Shown piece after piece: positions 9,899 to 20,510 of a stretch of 64,000 nt of DNA. The DNA is from a candidate division KSB1 bacterium (GTDB taxonomy: Bacteria > Zhuqueibacterota > Zhuqueibacteria > Residuimicrobiales > Krinioviventaceae). Location of the stretch: positions 62,001 to 126,000 of the forward strand of contig JAXHMJ010000004.1 of assembly GCA_034521575.1 (NCBI GenBank). Reading direction: 5' to 3'. A model generated the notes under the pieces. The model saw nothing but the letters and a program-made list of their open reading frames with translations, had not been told where the DNA came from and ran no database searches. The position numbers were made by a program, and so were the translations under genes. How positions within the stretch are numbered: position 1 is the first letter of the stretch; the number at the start of each line of letters is the position of its first letter.

Positions 9899-9923
9899 GC
9901 CGCCTCTGCAGAACAGAGGCGGC
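9899..9923 (-). terminator. Terminator hairpin of the FadL-like gene
   Basis: A perfect 10-bp stem GCCGCCTCTG / CAGAGGCGGC with a 5-base loop, 9 bases after the stop codon on the minus strand and followed there by TTTCCTTCC. The GC-rich stem plus a short T-rich tail fits an intrinsic terminator. Confidence 0.7.
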
Positions 9924-12436: not shown

Positions 12437-12575
12437 AAATCTCTCCTGTACTCTTTTTTTTATTGTCACCTTCAATAACAGTTTGATGAGGCACAATCAT
12501 TCCGTCACTGTAGAATAAAATGTAGTGAAAATCAAAACCAGAAGCAGATTGATTGACAATTAATTATATTTTTGC

Positions 12576-12604
12576 TTGACTTTGTCTTGAAAAAGCCCTA
12601 ATTT
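12576..12604 (+). promoter_or_regulatory. Promoter of the ilv-leu-cimA operon
   Basis: TTGACT (12576-12581), 17 bases, TAATTT (12599-12604). It lies 46 bases before the leader ORF start, consistent with a short 5-prime leader. Confidence 0.6.
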
Positions 12605-12650
12605 TCCGAATTACTAACCGAATTGAATTCATTCATGCTCAGGACAAAAC

Positions 12651-12845
12651 GTGTTTTTCACAAACTCACACATACCGACACTCACACGCGCAGCATTCGC
12701 CAATGGTATGGCTTGTTCTGACAGCAAAGGCAACCGGGTTGTTCCGCTCGTTGTCAATGAAATCATCTCCCTGCCTGTTGTATGGGTCGTACTAAACATT
12801 ATAGTACTACCTCTCGTTATTATTAACCTCTTGCTCCTGAAATAG
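12651..12845 (+). CDS. Branched-chain amino acid leader peptide
   Basis: A 64-codon ORF with a GTG start, AGGA 6 bases upstream (12641-12644), and an alternative in-frame ATG at 12708. The last 35 residues contain 10 Val, 9 Leu and 6 Ile, with runs such as VVPLVV, NEII, LPVVWVVLNII, LPLVII and a final LLLLK. This is the pattern of an attenuator peptide sensing all three branched-chain aminoacyl-tRNAs. It ends 156 bases before ilvB, and stems overlapping its last codons can switch partners. A ribosome stalling on these codons would control expression of the operon. Confidence 0.85.
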   Translation: MFFTNSHIPTLTRAAFANGMACSDSKGNRVVPLVVNEIISLPVVWVVLNIIVLPLVIINLLLLK

Positions 12846-12925
12846 CAAACAGGGTGTAAGAGGCCAATCAAACACACAAATTTTCCACAAATAATCATTT
12901 TCTTTACTATAGCCTCTGCACCCTG
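12827..12925 (+). promoter_or_regulatory. ilv attenuator: alternative RNA stems
   Basis: Segment 1 (12827-12839, CCTCTTGCTCCTG, the last Leu codons) can pair with segment 2 (12850-12863, CAGGGTGTAAGAGG) through CCTCTT/AAGAGG and CCTG/CAGG, with the leader stop codon in the loop. Segment 2 can instead pair with segment 3 (12912-12925, GCCTCTGCACCCTG) through 13 base pairs with one small bulge. The two structures exclude each other, as in classical attenuators. No T-tract follows segment 3, so the off-state (Rho, or masking of the ilvB start) is unresolved. A small hairpin GTACTA/TAGTAC also lies inside the control codons (12789-12807). Confidence 0.6.
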
Positions 12926-13001
12926 GGAAAAGACTGCTAAGACAGGTTTCACAGGCGGGAAAAGAGTTTGAAACAAAAAACAATAAAAAATGAGGATTTC
13001 C

Positions 13002-14721
13002 ATGACTGGTGCAGAAATGTTACTCTACGCATTTACAAAAGAAAAGGTTAAAGCGGTTTTTGGCTATCCCGGCGGTGCGGTCATTGACATCTTTGACAAG
13101 CTGTACGATTCAGATACCGCCTTTTTCCTCACACGGCATGAACAGGGCGCAGCCCACGCAGCAGACGGTTATGCGCGCGCGTCCGGAGAGGTCGGAGTCT
13201 GTATCGCCACATCAGGCCCCGGCGCCACGAATCTGGTAACCGGACTGGCTACGGCTTATATGGACTCGATTCCGGTGGTCGCCATCACCGGACAAGTCAA
13301 CACCAGCCTGATCGGCAACGACGCATTTCAGGAAGCGGATACCGTCGGTATTACACGCTCAATCACCAAACACAACTATCTGGTCAACAATGTAGACGAT
13401 CTGCCGCGCATCTTAAAGTCCGCGTTTTATATTGCGCGCACCGGCCGTCCCGGTCCGGTCGTGGTGGACCTGCCGAAAGATATTCAGCAGGCCGTGACCC
13501 AGGTGCCCTATCCGGATACCATTGACATCCCCAGCTACAAACCCACCATGGAGGGCCACAAACAGCAGATTAAAAAAGTGGCCCAGGCCATTGCTGAAGC
13601 CGAACGCCCGGTCATTTACGCCGGCGGCGGCGTGGTGGCCAGTGAAGCCAGCGACGAGCTGCGCAAACTGGCGGAAATTGCCGATATCCCGGTGACCACC
13701 ACTCTGATGGGACTCGGGTACATTTTCCGAAACCGACGAACGCGCTTTGAAAATGCTGGGTATGCACGGCACGGAATACGCCAATTATGCCATTCAGGAA
13801 TGCGACCTGCTTATTGCTGCGGGCGCGCGATTTGACGATCGCGTGACCGGCAAGGTTGAACACTTTGCCTCCAGGGCCAAAGTTGTACATATTGACATTG
13901 ACCCCACCACCATCCGCAAAAATGTTGAGGTTCATCTTCCGGTGGTCGGTGATATTAAATCCGTACTCGGGATGCTGAACACCGTTGTCAAACCCAAACA
14001 ACACAAGGCCTGGCGGCAAAAAATTGCGGACTGGAAAAAGAATCATCCGTTGACCTACGCCGAAAACGGCCGCATTCAGCCCCAGTACGTGATCGAGCAA
14101 ATCGCGGATCTGGCCAAACACCGCGCCATTATCGCCACCGAAGTGGGTCAGAACCAGATGTGGGCGGCCCAGTATTACGATTATGTGCAACCGCGCACGT
14201 TCCTGACCTCCGGCGGTCTCGGGACCATGGGCTATGGATTTCCGGCCGCCCTCGGTGCACAGGTGGCTCACCCGGATTCCCTGGTTGTGGACATTGCCGG
14301 CGACGGCAGTATCCAGATGAACATCCAGGAACTGGCCACCGCAGTGGTTTACAATATCCCGGTCAAAATAATCATCTTAAACAATCATTCTCTGGGTATG
14401 GTGCGCCAGTGGCAGGGAATTTTTTACAACCGGCGGTTTTCCTCAACCTGTCTGAAACGCCGCGCCACCTGTCCCTCGCACTGTGACCGCTCCGGCGACC
14501 AGTGTCCGGCTTATATTCCGGACTTTGTCAAACTGGCCGAGGCGTACGGCGCCACCGGATTGTTTGCCGATCAACCGGATCAGGTGCGGCCGACGCTGGA
14601 AAAAGCATTCAAAACACCGGGCCCGGTTGTGGTTGAATTTACCATTGATGAAGATGAAAACGTGTATCCGATGGTGCCGGCAGGCGCCCCCATTGATAAA
14701 ATGATAAGAGGGATGGCATAA
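13002..14721 (+). CDS. ilvB: Acetolactate synthase large subunit (frameshifted)
   Basis: Catalyses condensation of pyruvate (or pyruvate and 2-oxobutyrate), the first common step to Val, Leu and Ile. ATG 13002 is preferred over ATG 12990 because GAGGA (12993-12997) then serves as ribosome site. Thiamine-diphosphate enzyme features: FGYPGGAVIDIFD, the Glu-containing RHEQGAAHAADGYARASG, and GDGSIQMNIQELATA with NN at the end. One extra base near 13720 shifts the frame (GLG then TFSETDERALKMLG); this operon must be functional, so an assembly error is likely. Codons 14449-14505 encode an insert with four cysteines (C-x6-C-x3-C-x6-C) after the GMVRQWQ motif. Confidence 0.92.
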
Positions 14722-15209
14722 TGAGACATATTATTAATCTTGAAGTAGAGAACAACGCGGGCGTCCTCGCCCGCATCGCGGGACTGTTCAGCGCCCGCGG
14801 TTTCAATATCGACAGCCTGTCTGTCGCCAATACGGACAGTGATGATATTTCCAGAATGACCCTGGTGGTTCAGGGTGACGATGCTATTATTGAACAGGTG
14901 AACAAACAGCTGAACAAGCTGATTGATGTCATTCGGGTGACCGATATCACCAAAAACAACTATGTGGACCGGGAGCTGCTGCTGGTGCGTGTCAACTGCC
15001 CGCCCAATCAGCGCGCAGATGTCTCACAGGTCGCCGAAATATTTGGCGCCAAAGTGGTGGACATTGGCCCCAAAACCCTGACACTTGAAGTGATCGGATC
15101 TGAGCAGAAAATTGACGCGTTTGTCGAGACCGTGCGCCCGTACGGGCTCAAAGAAGTGGCGCGCAGCGGTCCGGTGACCATGCTGCGTGAAGCCGCCAAA
15201 CGAAATTAA
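14721..15209 (+). CDS. ilvN: Acetolactate synthase small (regulatory) subunit
   Basis: 162 residues. The N-terminal ACT domain (about 2-75) reads HIINLEVENNAGVLARIAGL then FNIDSLSVANTD, the valine-binding surface of IlvN/IlvH. The C-terminal domain begins around ELLLVRVNCP. The ilvB stop and this ATG share a base (TAATG), so translation is coupled. It binds IlvB and gives feedback inhibition. Confidence 0.96.
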   Translation: MRHIINLEVENNAGVLARIAGLFSARGFNIDSLSVANTDSDDISRMTLVVQGDDAIIEQVNKQLNKLIDVIRVTDITKNNYVDRELLLVRVNCPPNQRADVSQVAEIFGAKVVDIGPKTLTLEVIGSEQKIDAFVETVRPYGLKEVARSGPVTMLREAAKRN

Positions 15210-15229: not shown

Positions 15230-16234
<1,005 letters not shown>

Positions 16235-16247
16235 AGGAGTCTGTGTT

Positions 16248-17793
16248 TTGGATAAAAACCGAGTTCTTGTATTTGATACCACCTTACGCGACGGTGAACA
16301 ATCACCGGGCGCCAGTTTGAATGTGCAGGATAAATTGAATATTGCACATCAGCTCGCCCGCCTGGGTGTGGATGTCATCGAAGCGGGATTTCCGATTTCA
16401 AGCCGGGCCCAGTTCGATGCGGTCAAACAAATATCGGAAAACGTGCAGGGTCCAGCCATTGCCGGACTGGCGCGCTGTGTTCAAAGTGACATCGAAAACG
16501 CCGCCAAAGCATTGGAAAAAGCAAAAAAACCGCGCATTCATACCTTTGTCGCCACGTCCAGGATTCATCTGGAGAAAAAATTCGGAAAATCCAAAGATGA
16601 TATTTTAGAAATGGCGGTAAAAAATGTTGAACTGGCGCGCAAGTATGTCGATGACGTTGAATTTTCCCCGGAAGATTCATCGCGCACCGGCAAGGACTAT
16701 TTGTTCCAGGTCGTGGAAGCTGCCATCAACGCCGGCGCTTCCACCATCAACATTCCCGATACCGTGGGTTATGCCACCCCGGATGAATTTGGAGAGCGCA
16801 TCCGCAGAGATCATCGAAACCGTGCCCAATATGCACAAAGCCATTCTCAGTGTGCATTGTCACAATGATCTGGGACTGGCTGTCGCGAATACGCTGGCCG
16901 CCATCCGCAACGGCGCCCAGCAGGTGGAAGTGACCATCAACGGTATCGGTGAACGCGCCGGTAACGCCTCACTGGAAGAAGTGGTGATGGCCCTGAAAGC
17001 GCGTAACAATTTCTATCAGAAAACCACGGGCATCAACACCCGGGAAATCACCCACACCAGCCGCATGGTCAGCAGCCTGACCGGCATGTCGGTGCAGCCC
17101 AACAAGGCGATTGTCGGCAGCAATGCGTTTGCGCACGAAGCCGGTATTCACCAGGACGCTATGATCAAACATGCCAGCACCTACGAGATCATGACCCCGG
17201 CGGAAATCGGTCTGGATGCCAGCCGCATTGTGCTCGGCCGCCACTCCGGCCGTCACGGACTGAAACAAAGACTGCAGGAACTCGGCTATGTCCTGGATAA
17301 AGGGGAAATGGACCGTGTGTACGAACGTTTTCTTGAAATCGCGGACAAGAAAAAAGAAGTGTTTGATCAGGATCTGATTGCCATTGTCGGCGACGAATAT
17401 CAGGAATACGAAGAGACGTTTCATCTGGACTATTTTCACATCACCAGCGGCAATTCGGTGCTGCCCACCGCCACGATCCAGTTGCTGCGCGGTGAAGACA
17501 ATTTCAGAGACGCCTCGGTGGGCGACGGTCCCATTGACGCCGCGTTCCGGGCCATTGAAAAAATCGTGGACCGTCCGCTGGTACTGGAAGAATACTCGCT
17601 GCGCGGCGTGACCGGCGGCAAGGACGCCATGGGCGAAGTGGTGGTGCGTCTGCGCCAGGGTGATTACAAAATCCTGGGGCGCGGCGCCTCGACCGATGTG
17701 ATTGAAGCCAGTATCCGCGCTTTTGTCAATGCGCTCAACCGGATGCTGCACATGGAACAAAACGGCAAGTTTGACTCGAATGAACAGGTATAA
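16248..17793 (+). CDS. leuA: 2-isopropylmalate synthase (frameshifted)
   Basis: First committed step of leucine synthesis: acetyl-CoA plus 2-oxoisovalerate. Start TTG 16248 follows GAGGAG and lies 13 bases after ilvC. Catalytic-barrel motifs are [16 protein letters not shown] at the N-terminus and the HxH metal site in [15 protein letters not shown]. The C-terminal regulatory domain (from about residue 380) reads [18 protein letters not shown]. One extra base near 16800 breaks the frame between DEFGERIR and [11 protein letters not shown]. Length about 515 residues is normal. Confidence 0.93.
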
Positions 17794-17838: not shown

Positions 17839-18906
17839 ATGCAAACCGACACCACAATAACCGTGCTGCCGGGCGACGGCATCGGCCCCGAAGTCACCGC
17901 GGAAGCGGTCAAGGTGCTAAAGGCGTTAGCCGGGTCAAGTGATTTGAATTTTGAATTCAACTATGCCGATGTGGGCGGCTGCGCGGTGGACAAGCACAAC
18001 ACACCGCTTCCGAAAGCCACACTTGAACAATGTAAATCCAGTGATGCGGTTCTGATGGGCGCCATCGGCGCGCCGCAGTACGACGAACTGCCCGGACACC
18101 TGCGGCCGGAACGCGGTCTCCTGGACCTGCGCAAAGGCCTGGGACTGTACGCCAATCTGCGTCCCGCGCGCGTGTATCCGGCGCTGGCGTCCGCATCAAC
18201 GCTAAAACCCGAGTACATCGAAAACGTGGATATTCTCATTGTCCGCGAGCTCACCGGCGGTATTTATTTCGGCACGCCGCAGGAGATCAACGAGTCCGGT
18301 GGAGAAGCGCGCAGCACCATGGTATACCAGAAACATGAAATTAAACGCATCGCCCGCGTCGCCTTTAAAGCCGCCGGCAAACGCGGGAACCGCGTCTGCT
18401 CCGTGGACAAGGCCAATGTGCTGGATGTCTCCAAATACTGGCGCCGGATTGTCAAAGAGACGGCAACCGAGTATCCGGATATCGAGCTCAGTCATATGTA
18501 CGTGGACAATTGCGCCATGCAGCTGGTGCGCTATCCGGCTCAGTTTGATGTGATTGTCACCGGCAATATGTTCGGCGACATTCTCAGCGACGAAGCGTCC
18601 ATGCTCACCGGCTCTCTGGGCATGCTGCCCTCCGCCAGTCTGGGCGACGACTATGCGCTGTACGAGCCCGTGCACGGATCCGCGCCGGATATTGCCGGAC
18701 AGGGCAAAGCCAATCCCATTGCCACCATTGCGTCAGCGGCCATGATGCTGCAATACACCCTGAACCGTCCCGATCTGGCCGAAACCATTGAACAGGCCAT
18801 TGAAACAACCCTGATTGCAGGCTGCCGCACCGCGGATATCGCCATGAACGGCGAAACCCCGGTCAGCACGGCGGACATGGGACAGGAAATCGTTAAAAAT
18901 CTATAA
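17839..18906 (+). CDS. leuB: 3-isopropylmalate dehydrogenase
   Basis: 355 residues, intact. The N-terminus has [16 protein letters not shown]. The substrate loop with Arg residues is in [22 protein letters not shown]. The metal and nucleotide region is in [20 protein letters not shown]. It oxidises and decarboxylates 3-isopropylmalate with NAD. AGGAGG lies upstream of the ATG with rather long spacing (about 13 bases). The leuCD isomerase genes are not in this window. Confidence 0.96.
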
Positions 18907-18927: not shown

Positions 18928-20510
18928 ATGAGCACGTTGACCCTATATGACACCACCCTGCGCGACGGATCCCAGGCAGAAGGGATCTCGTTTTCCGCAG
19001 AGGACAAAATCAAGATCGCCAAAAAACTGGCCGCGTTCGGCGTTGATTATATCGAAGGCGGCTGGCCGGGATCCAATCCCAAGGATATGGAGTTTTTCCG
19101 CCGCGCCCGCGACATCAACTGGGGCAAAACGAAAATCGCCGCGTTCGGCAGCACCCGGCGCGCCAAATTTAGTGTACAGGACGATCAGAATATCAAGCTG
19201 CTGCTAAAAGCCGATACCCCGGCGGTGACGGTGTTTGGTAAAACCTGGGATCTGCATGTGACCGAAGGCCTGCGCACCACCCTAAAGACCAATCTGGAGA
19301 TGATCTATGATTCCGTGGCCTATCTCAAGGATCAGGACAAACAGGTGATCTATGATGCCGAGCATTTCTTTGACGGCTTTGCGCACAATCCGGATTACGC
19401 GCTGCAGACCCTGGAAGCGGCGCAGCGCGGCGGCGCCGAGTGCCTGGTGCTGTGCGATACCAACGGCGGCACTCTGCCGCATCAGGTGCAGGATATGATC
19501 GAGGCGCACTCAGGCGCACGGATTCGACGTGCCGCTGGGCATGCACGCCCACAACGATTCGGATGTGGCGGTGGCCAACAGTCTGGCCGCCATTCAGCTG
19601 GGACTGTATCACGTGCAGGGTACCATGAACGGGTATGGCGAACGCTGCGGCAACGCCAATCTGTGTTCAGTGATCCCGAATGTGGCGCTGAAAACAGATA
19701 TCAAGCTCAGCCGCCGGGTCAAGCTCAAAGACCTGACCCGACTCTCCCGCTATATCAGTGAAACCGCCAACATGCAGCATGAGGAAAAAGCCGCGTTTGT
19801 CGGCAACAGCGCCTTTGCGCACAAAGGCGGCATTCACGTCAGCGCCATCAAGCGCAACCGCCGCACCTATGAACACATCGATCCGGAACAGGTCGGCAAC
19901 CATCAGCGCGTGCTGGTGTCGGATCAGGCCGGACAGAGCAACGTGCTGCACAAGGCCGAGGAAATGGGCTATAAACTGTCCAAAGACGCGGATATCAAAC
20001 AGATCGTCGAGCGCATGAAAGAACTGGAACATCTCGGATATCAGTTCGAAGACGCGCTCGGCTCCTTTGAGGTGCTGCTGCACAAGACCACGGGACAACA
20101 CAAGGACTTTTTTGAACTCAAAAGCGCCAGGGTGATGATCGACAAGCATGAAAACGGCGATTTATACTCTGAGGCCATTGTCAAAGTCACGGTCGACGGC
20201 ATGCTGGAACACACCGCATCCGAAGGCACCGGACCGGTCGATGCCCTGGACGAGGCCTTGCGCAAGGGTCTGGAACCGTTTTATCCGTCCCTGAAACACG
20301 CATGAAACTCACGGACTATAAGGTGCGAGTGCTGAACAGCACCGAGGGGGCGCCGCCGCCAAGGTGCGCGTGTTCATCGAATCCCAGGACGAAAACATGG
20401 TCTGGGGCACCGTCGGCGTCTCGGAAAACATCATCGAAGCCAGCTGGCAGGCCCTGGTCGACCGCATTACCTATAAACTCATGCGCGAAGAGCAGGCAGC
20501 CCCGGAATGA
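18928..20510 (+). CDS. cimA: Citramalate synthase (three frameshifts)
   Basis: Condenses pyruvate with acetyl-CoA to citramalate, giving 2-oxobutyrate for isoleucine without threonine deaminase. The N-terminus [18 protein letters not shown] with [10 protein letters not shown] is characteristic of CimA rather than LeuA. The metal site is [18 protein letters not shown]. The C-terminus is [19 protein letters not shown]. Indels lie at about 19510, 20300 and 20350. The tail [12 protein letters not shown] to REEQAAPE reads only after correcting the last two. Total about 525 residues. It is the last operon gene; the foreign cassette array begins 3 bases after its stop. Confidence 0.9.

Follow-up and report, generated by a model that had tools for sequence, protein, structure and literature searches.

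The biosynthetic operon that begins with ilvB in the window (the whole 64,000-nucleotide stretch of a candidate division KSB1 genome that was analysed) is preceded by an element that very probably acts as a trp-type, ribosome-mediated attenuator sensing leucine, valine and isoleucine. The sequence holds a leader ORF that ends in a run of branched-chain codons, together with three short RNA words, A, B and C, for which two mutually exclusive pairings, A:B and B:C, are predicted; leader, codon run and pairings are conserved in the order. The pairing of B with C is probably the ON structure, an antiterminator.

The leader and its operon

The full element, about 12576-13001, exceeds the ORF: it begins with the promoter, whose -35 box lies at 12576, takes in C (12912-12925) and ends at the start of ilvB. 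The features of the region are as follows.

12576-12604, + strand: sigma-70-like promoter (TTGACT 12576-12581, 17 nt spacer, TAATTT 12599-12604)
12641-12644, + strand: AGGA, probable Shine-Dalgarno sequence of the leader, 7 nt 5' of the GTG
12651-12845, + strand: leader-peptide ORF, 64 codons, GTG start, TAG stop at 12843-12845
12827-12839, + strand: element A, CCTCTTGCTCCTG, segment-1-like, within the last leader codons
12850-12864, + strand: element B, CAGGGTGTAAGAGGC, 4 nt past the stop codon, predicted to pair with A or with C
12866-12911, + strand: G-free spacer of A, C and T only, loop of B:C (0 G in 45 nt; edges shift by 1-2 bases depending on how B and C are defined)
12912-12925, + strand: element C, GCCTCTGCACCCTG, probable 3' arm of the antiterminator, 47 nt beyond B, no U-tract after it
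13002-14721, + strand: ilvB, acetolactate synthase large subunit, putatively the first regulated gene, frame broken near 13720
14721-15209, + strand: ilvN (ORF list)
15245-16234, + strand: ilvC (ORF list)
16248-17793, + strand: leuA-like (ORF list)
17839-18906, + strand: leuB (ORF list)
18928-20305, + strand: cimA/leuA-like (ORF list)

The operon genes between 14721 and 20305 are named from their sequences and from general knowledge of the pathway. Three genes of the operon each run over two overlapping frames: ilvB, with its break near 13720, the leuA-like gene, with one near 16820, and the cimA-like gene, with one near 19600. Three breaks within one operon of a 5-contig assembly (genome G000, 5.26 Mb) suggest residual indel errors, or less probably real mutations.

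The leader ORF ends 156 nt before ilvB. Its last 35 residues, VVPLVVNEIISLPVVWVVLNIIVLPLVIINLLLLK, comprise 10 Val, 9 Leu and 6 Ile, and a recount reproduces exactly the position and the 25 of 35 branched-chain residues given in an earlier note on this DNA. That note also held that chance could not easily explain the tail. Measured against the long ORFs of the same genome, in which Ile, Leu and Val make up 22.4%, the binomial probability of such a tail is 9e-10, and among 22,611 tails of ORFs of 35-120 aa in 1.66 Mb of this genome the leader alone scores at least 23.

Conservation within the order

The order is represented by 22 genomes, 17 of which carry a close ilvB; the leader could be read in the 16 of these with upstream DNA and in G005, whose contig reaches only the ilvB start. 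The earlier note had proposed a search for the same leader in relatives, and every order genome with readable DNA upstream of ilvB keeps both the ORF and its branched-chain-rich tail (17/17). The leader ends ~130-340 nt before ilvB across the order. Its N-terminal part is variable in length and sequence and its C-terminus is conserved, with patterns such as PLVIINLLL. TTGAC lies 5' of the leader start at a comparable position in most order relatives, and AGGA also precedes the start in loci L003, L004, L007, L009, L010 and L027.

The density of branched-chain codons peaks at A (0.81 at codons -10 to -6), and the run extends upstream, with further branched-chain codons 15-25 codons before A. 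The rare Leu codon CTA makes up 22% of the Leu codons in the order's leader tails vs 3.1% in the long ORFs of G000, a comparison that is indicative because the tails come from several genomes and the baseline from G000 alone.

A covariance model built on the region has a single clear match in each genome, in every case in front of ilvB, and its matches are confined to the order; model R1 finds one copy in G000. When built without G005 the model still matches G005 at E 1.3e-14. Weak model matches before gltB (G010) and trpE (G001) were rejected as further copies. A generic scan for a leader followed by A/B/C returns this place alone in 464 kb, and in 1.66 Mb it is the sole convincing one.

Three RNA words with exclusive pairings

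In the window and the order leaders, A contains the last Leu codons, CCTCTTGC, at the end of the leader. The B word, GTGCAAGAGG, follows directly past the leader stop, and C is an A-like copy ~50 nt further on. In the window A:B has a predicted stability of -16.6 to -19.7 kcal/mol and B:C of -26 kcal/mol. Both pairings exceed dinucleotide shuffles in nearly all of the 16 order leaders, the lone clear exception in this test being L015 (G012), in which a clear C is absent. A:B is paired in 94% of alignment cells across the order, a level reached by 1 of 500 shuffles, and three pairs have changed on both sides. For B:C, 81% of cells are paired in a fixed MAFFT alignment, in which covariation does not rise above shuffles; register shifts caused by bulges contribute to this. 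When the region of A is treated as covered by a ribosome, B:C dominates the predicted fold in 18 of 21 leaders. The attenuation reading of the earlier note is thus right in kind, since the RNA part is present as well as the leader.

Spread beyond the order

In relatives from the class and phylum the first gene is ilvD, and it is preceded by the same plan in other words, for example GGGCTTGATTTCTGGC / GCGCCAGAGATCAGCCC / GATCTCTGGCGC or ATAGGAGTGATTTCCGGC / GCCAGAGGTCATTCCTAC / GTAGGTTTGACCTCTGG for A, B and C. This architecture stands before ilvD in 19 phylum genomes and at 3 outside loci, two from Ignavibacteria and one a Bacteroidetes record. Among ~80 loci from Omnitrophota, Nitrospirota, Desulfobacterota and others the same leader was found only at those two Ignavibacteria loci and in that one Bacteroidetes record. 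The A/B/C architecture also appears, by a loose criterion, in ~23 of the 29 Bacteroidota loci most similar to the query. In the Bacteroidota leaders the branched-chain run starts at A, and many of them (L284-L299) carry a recurring TATATCTGAAG motif ~12-25 nt after C.

The anatomy was surveyed at 38 loci from the order, the phylum and the Ignavibacteria/Bacteroidetes set; related loci among them share descent, so that the counts cannot be used as probabilities. The words differ between families and their complementarity is kept: B:C is better than shuffles (p ≤ 0.05) in 38/38 loci and A:B in 30/38. B starts 3-9 nt past the stop codon in 37/38. The end of A is close to the stop in this order, and in Bacteroidota A lies further upstream. 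The B-C loop is 26-59 nt long and C lies 24-246 nt from the gene. The spacer is poorer in G than the sequence after C in all 38 loci (G 5-8% and C 19-29% vs G 25-27% and C 6-17%), a composition that a neutral linker could also give.

Proposed mechanism and its polarity

In the trp leader, segment 1 ends at the stop codon and segment 2 lies a few nucleotides past it. The same layout is found here: a codon run for the operon's amino acid products, a first segment near the stop and a second just past it, and at the end of the ORF two exclusive pairings, A:B vs B:C, that correspond to 1:2 and 2:3. The 3:4 hairpin with its U-tract is not found in the order, so the element is said to work like the trp type and not to be a complete member of it.

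From this layout we infer the polarity and the response to amino acids. Control of the operon ilvB-ilvN-ilvC-leuA-leuB-cimA would depend on how much charged Leu-, Val- and Ile-tRNA is available, with A (in the last leader codons), B (past the stop) and C (~50 nt on) standing roughly for trp segments 1-3. When branched-chain amino acids are scarce, the ribosome would stall in the codon run up to or over A and mask it; B:C would then form as the antiterminator and the operon would be transcribed. When they are plentiful, a ribosome at the stop codon would mask B, or A:B would form after its release. With B engaged elsewhere, C and the G-free spacer would be left free and transcription would stop before ilvB. 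B:C is assigned the antiterminator role, with A:B competing against it, because of the trp-like layout, the codon run at A and, in one group of Bacteroidota, a further hairpin (C:D) with a U-tract; this C:D hairpin overlaps C, as expected if C is segment 3.

The opposite polarity is rather unlikely and is retained as the chief rival because early stalls would leave A free. Here A:B would be the ON structure, formed while the ribosome is stalled upstream of A, and B:C an OFF hairpin that lacks a U-tract. The order's branched-chain codons do reach well upstream of A, and a ribosome stalled 15-25 codons before it would leave A free to pair with B, which speaks against the polarity proposed above; the high predicted stability of B:C also fits an OFF hairpin, and this was the initial reading. 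It was demoted after the 38-locus survey showed purine-rich sequence in place of a U-tract after C, and the terminator of the related Bacteroidota leaders was placed at C:D. Loops of 26-59 nt are, moreover, unlike those of intrinsic terminators, and with B only 3-9 nt past the stop a terminating ribosome would hinder B:C.

The termination step

No U-tract follows C at any of the 38 loci, where the next 12 nt average 1.6-2.4 T in a purine-rich sequence; C therefore does not end an intrinsic terminator, and a canonical terminator at C is ruled out. Nor does a C:D hairpin exceed shuffles in any of the 16 order leaders (p ≤ 0.05; median p 0.64), and no U-tract follows there. With neither a C:D excess nor a U-tract, the terminator that the trp model requires is unseen in the order. 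One Bacteroidota group, with genomes mostly of 2-3 Mb, has a C:D hairpin that overlaps C (for example CTTCGGGA..TCCCGAAG) and is followed by a U-tract with 6.8 T of 10. Among the remaining Bacteroidota, 11 of 13 leaders hint at C:D (p ≤ 0.2), without an immediate U-tract. The C:D test is modest in Bacteroidota too, with median p of 0.10 and 0.17.

Rho acting on the exposed spacer is a conjecture for the OFF step in the order, and a reasonable candidate: a rho gene is present in G000 (706 bits), a strong hairpin stands after just 21 of the 188 gene ends in 464 kb (the U-tract being weak in many cases), and the G-free spacer would be fully exposed only with B:C open. A wider proposition is tentative: a branched-chain attenuator would span the phylum and Bacteroidota, its antiterminator would close a G-free loop, and in this order Rho, loading on that loop once it is exposed, would take the place of the intrinsic terminator kept by some Bacteroidota relatives.

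Several other observations concern termination in these genomes. A second rho-like gene lies in G000 at C5 2188875-2189993 (L113), below the family cut-off. At 9899-9923 of the window a strong GC hairpin with a weak U-tract on each side separates two convergent genes. Before trpE of another genome of the family (L131, G001 C26) stand two tandem hairpins with T8 and T7 tails; canonical intrinsic terminators therefore exist in the same family.

Other explanations

Alternative structures might instead open and close the ribosome-binding site of ilvB or ilvD, and C is indeed only 24-30 nt from the start codon in some ilvD-type leaders. Such translational attenuation is improbable given that predicted openness of the start region is alike in both states (mean 0.425 vs 0.395, 21 loci) and that the distance from C to the gene ranges up to 246 nt; start-site sequestration was rejected for want of a clear difference between the states. 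T-boxes and known riboswitches were likewise rejected, as Rfam 15 at gathering score gives no match in the window and only a tmRNA match in 16 relatives, and at E up to 10 nothing meaningful in 12540-13020. Least probable is a gene for a small hydrophobic membrane protein whose codons have no regulatory role: the tail is compatible with a membrane helix, but the peptide is poorly conserved outside its branched-chain-rich C-terminus, while the position before ilvB/ilvD, the stop-to-B spacing and the A/B/C complementarity are all kept and the generic scan of 464 kb singles out this place.

Comparison with known systems

Leaders of the branched-chain type have been described upstream of ilvB in both Proteobacteria and Actinobacteria (PMC1262725, PMC10272879, PMC11857589, PMC13236596). 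The earlier note took a three-amino-acid sensor to be little described in this phylum; joint sensing of Ile, Val and Leu by one leader is not in itself new, since actinobacterial ilvB leaders carrying runs of all three have already been reported (PMC1262725, PMC10272879, PMC13236596). The attenuators of E. coli trp, Mycobacterium tuberculosis ilvB1NC and Corynebacterium ilvBNC likewise combine a leader containing regulatory codons with exclusive RNA structures, the first segment lying in the ORF and the second past the stop. The latter two share both the target genes and the three amino acids with the element described here (PMC13236596 for ilvB1NC; PMC10272879 and PMC11857589 for ilvBNC). All three have an intrinsic terminator with a U-tract, whereas none was found in this order. 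The leader is also longer, ~42-70 aa here vs 15-17 in Corynebacterium, and a G-poor B-C loop of 26-59 nt is added.

In other phyla, the ilvB-OMG and Leptospira ilvB motifs, in which ilvB is preceded by ORFs with many branched-chain codons, are proposed attenuators (PMC10272879, PMC8632094). They are described as rich in branched-chain residues and threonine, and the comparison with the present leader is based on these descriptions, so that some overlap is possible; the element has no Rfam match to ilvB-OMG, a motif that Rfam may itself omit. For Flavobacterium psychrophilum, a member of the Bacteroidota, the parts of the report consulted give strong clues of leader-peptide attenuation upstream of amino-acid biosynthesis operons and, in those parts, name no structure or family (PMC9723704); what is added here is the A/B/C anatomy and how widely it occurs.

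The Rho-dependent mgtL and corL leaders of Salmonella and E. coli offer a precedent: efficient translation of the leader brings about repression, no U-tract terminator being involved, and the ON state of corA sequesters a pyrimidine-rich rut (PMC11552253). Their signal is Mg2+ and the mgtL leader uses proline and acidic residues, in contrast with the branched-chain codons found here, where the part of Rho is conjectural.

As far as the open-licence literature was checked, three things appear to be new: an A/B/C anatomy, G-poor in its loop, that is conserved across the phylum and Bacteroidota; its occurrence at ilvB, in new words, in this order; and the lack of a recognisable terminator there. 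With it, ribosome-mediated control of branched-chain synthesis would extend to an uncultured phylum and be widespread in Bacteroidota, and no Rfam family matched its anatomy. The swapping of words between families is a natural record of paired RNA segments co-evolving under coding constraint, and the order with no recognisable terminator offers a test case for an attenuator changing its termination step.

Other leaders in the order

The ilvD gene of G000 lies on another contig (C3 ~592138; L279 ~12137) and has a branched-chain leader of its own, MSCYDKRHIMMIHGEFVNSSNRIVVSLLLSLLSILGIITVR, which ends ~70 nt before it; several order relatives also have a branched-chain leader before ilvD. One order genome, G010, has a leader-like ORF with this A/B/C layout in front of gltB, the glutamate synthase gene (L133, C146, 27179-27305); the ORF ends NRIINTIKNLLRKCLN, and the other regions upstream of gltB in the order lack it. 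Two genomes of genus g3 (L147, L150) carry before gltB a long hairpin, CGCACAAT..ATGCA ... TGCAT..ATTGATGCGG.
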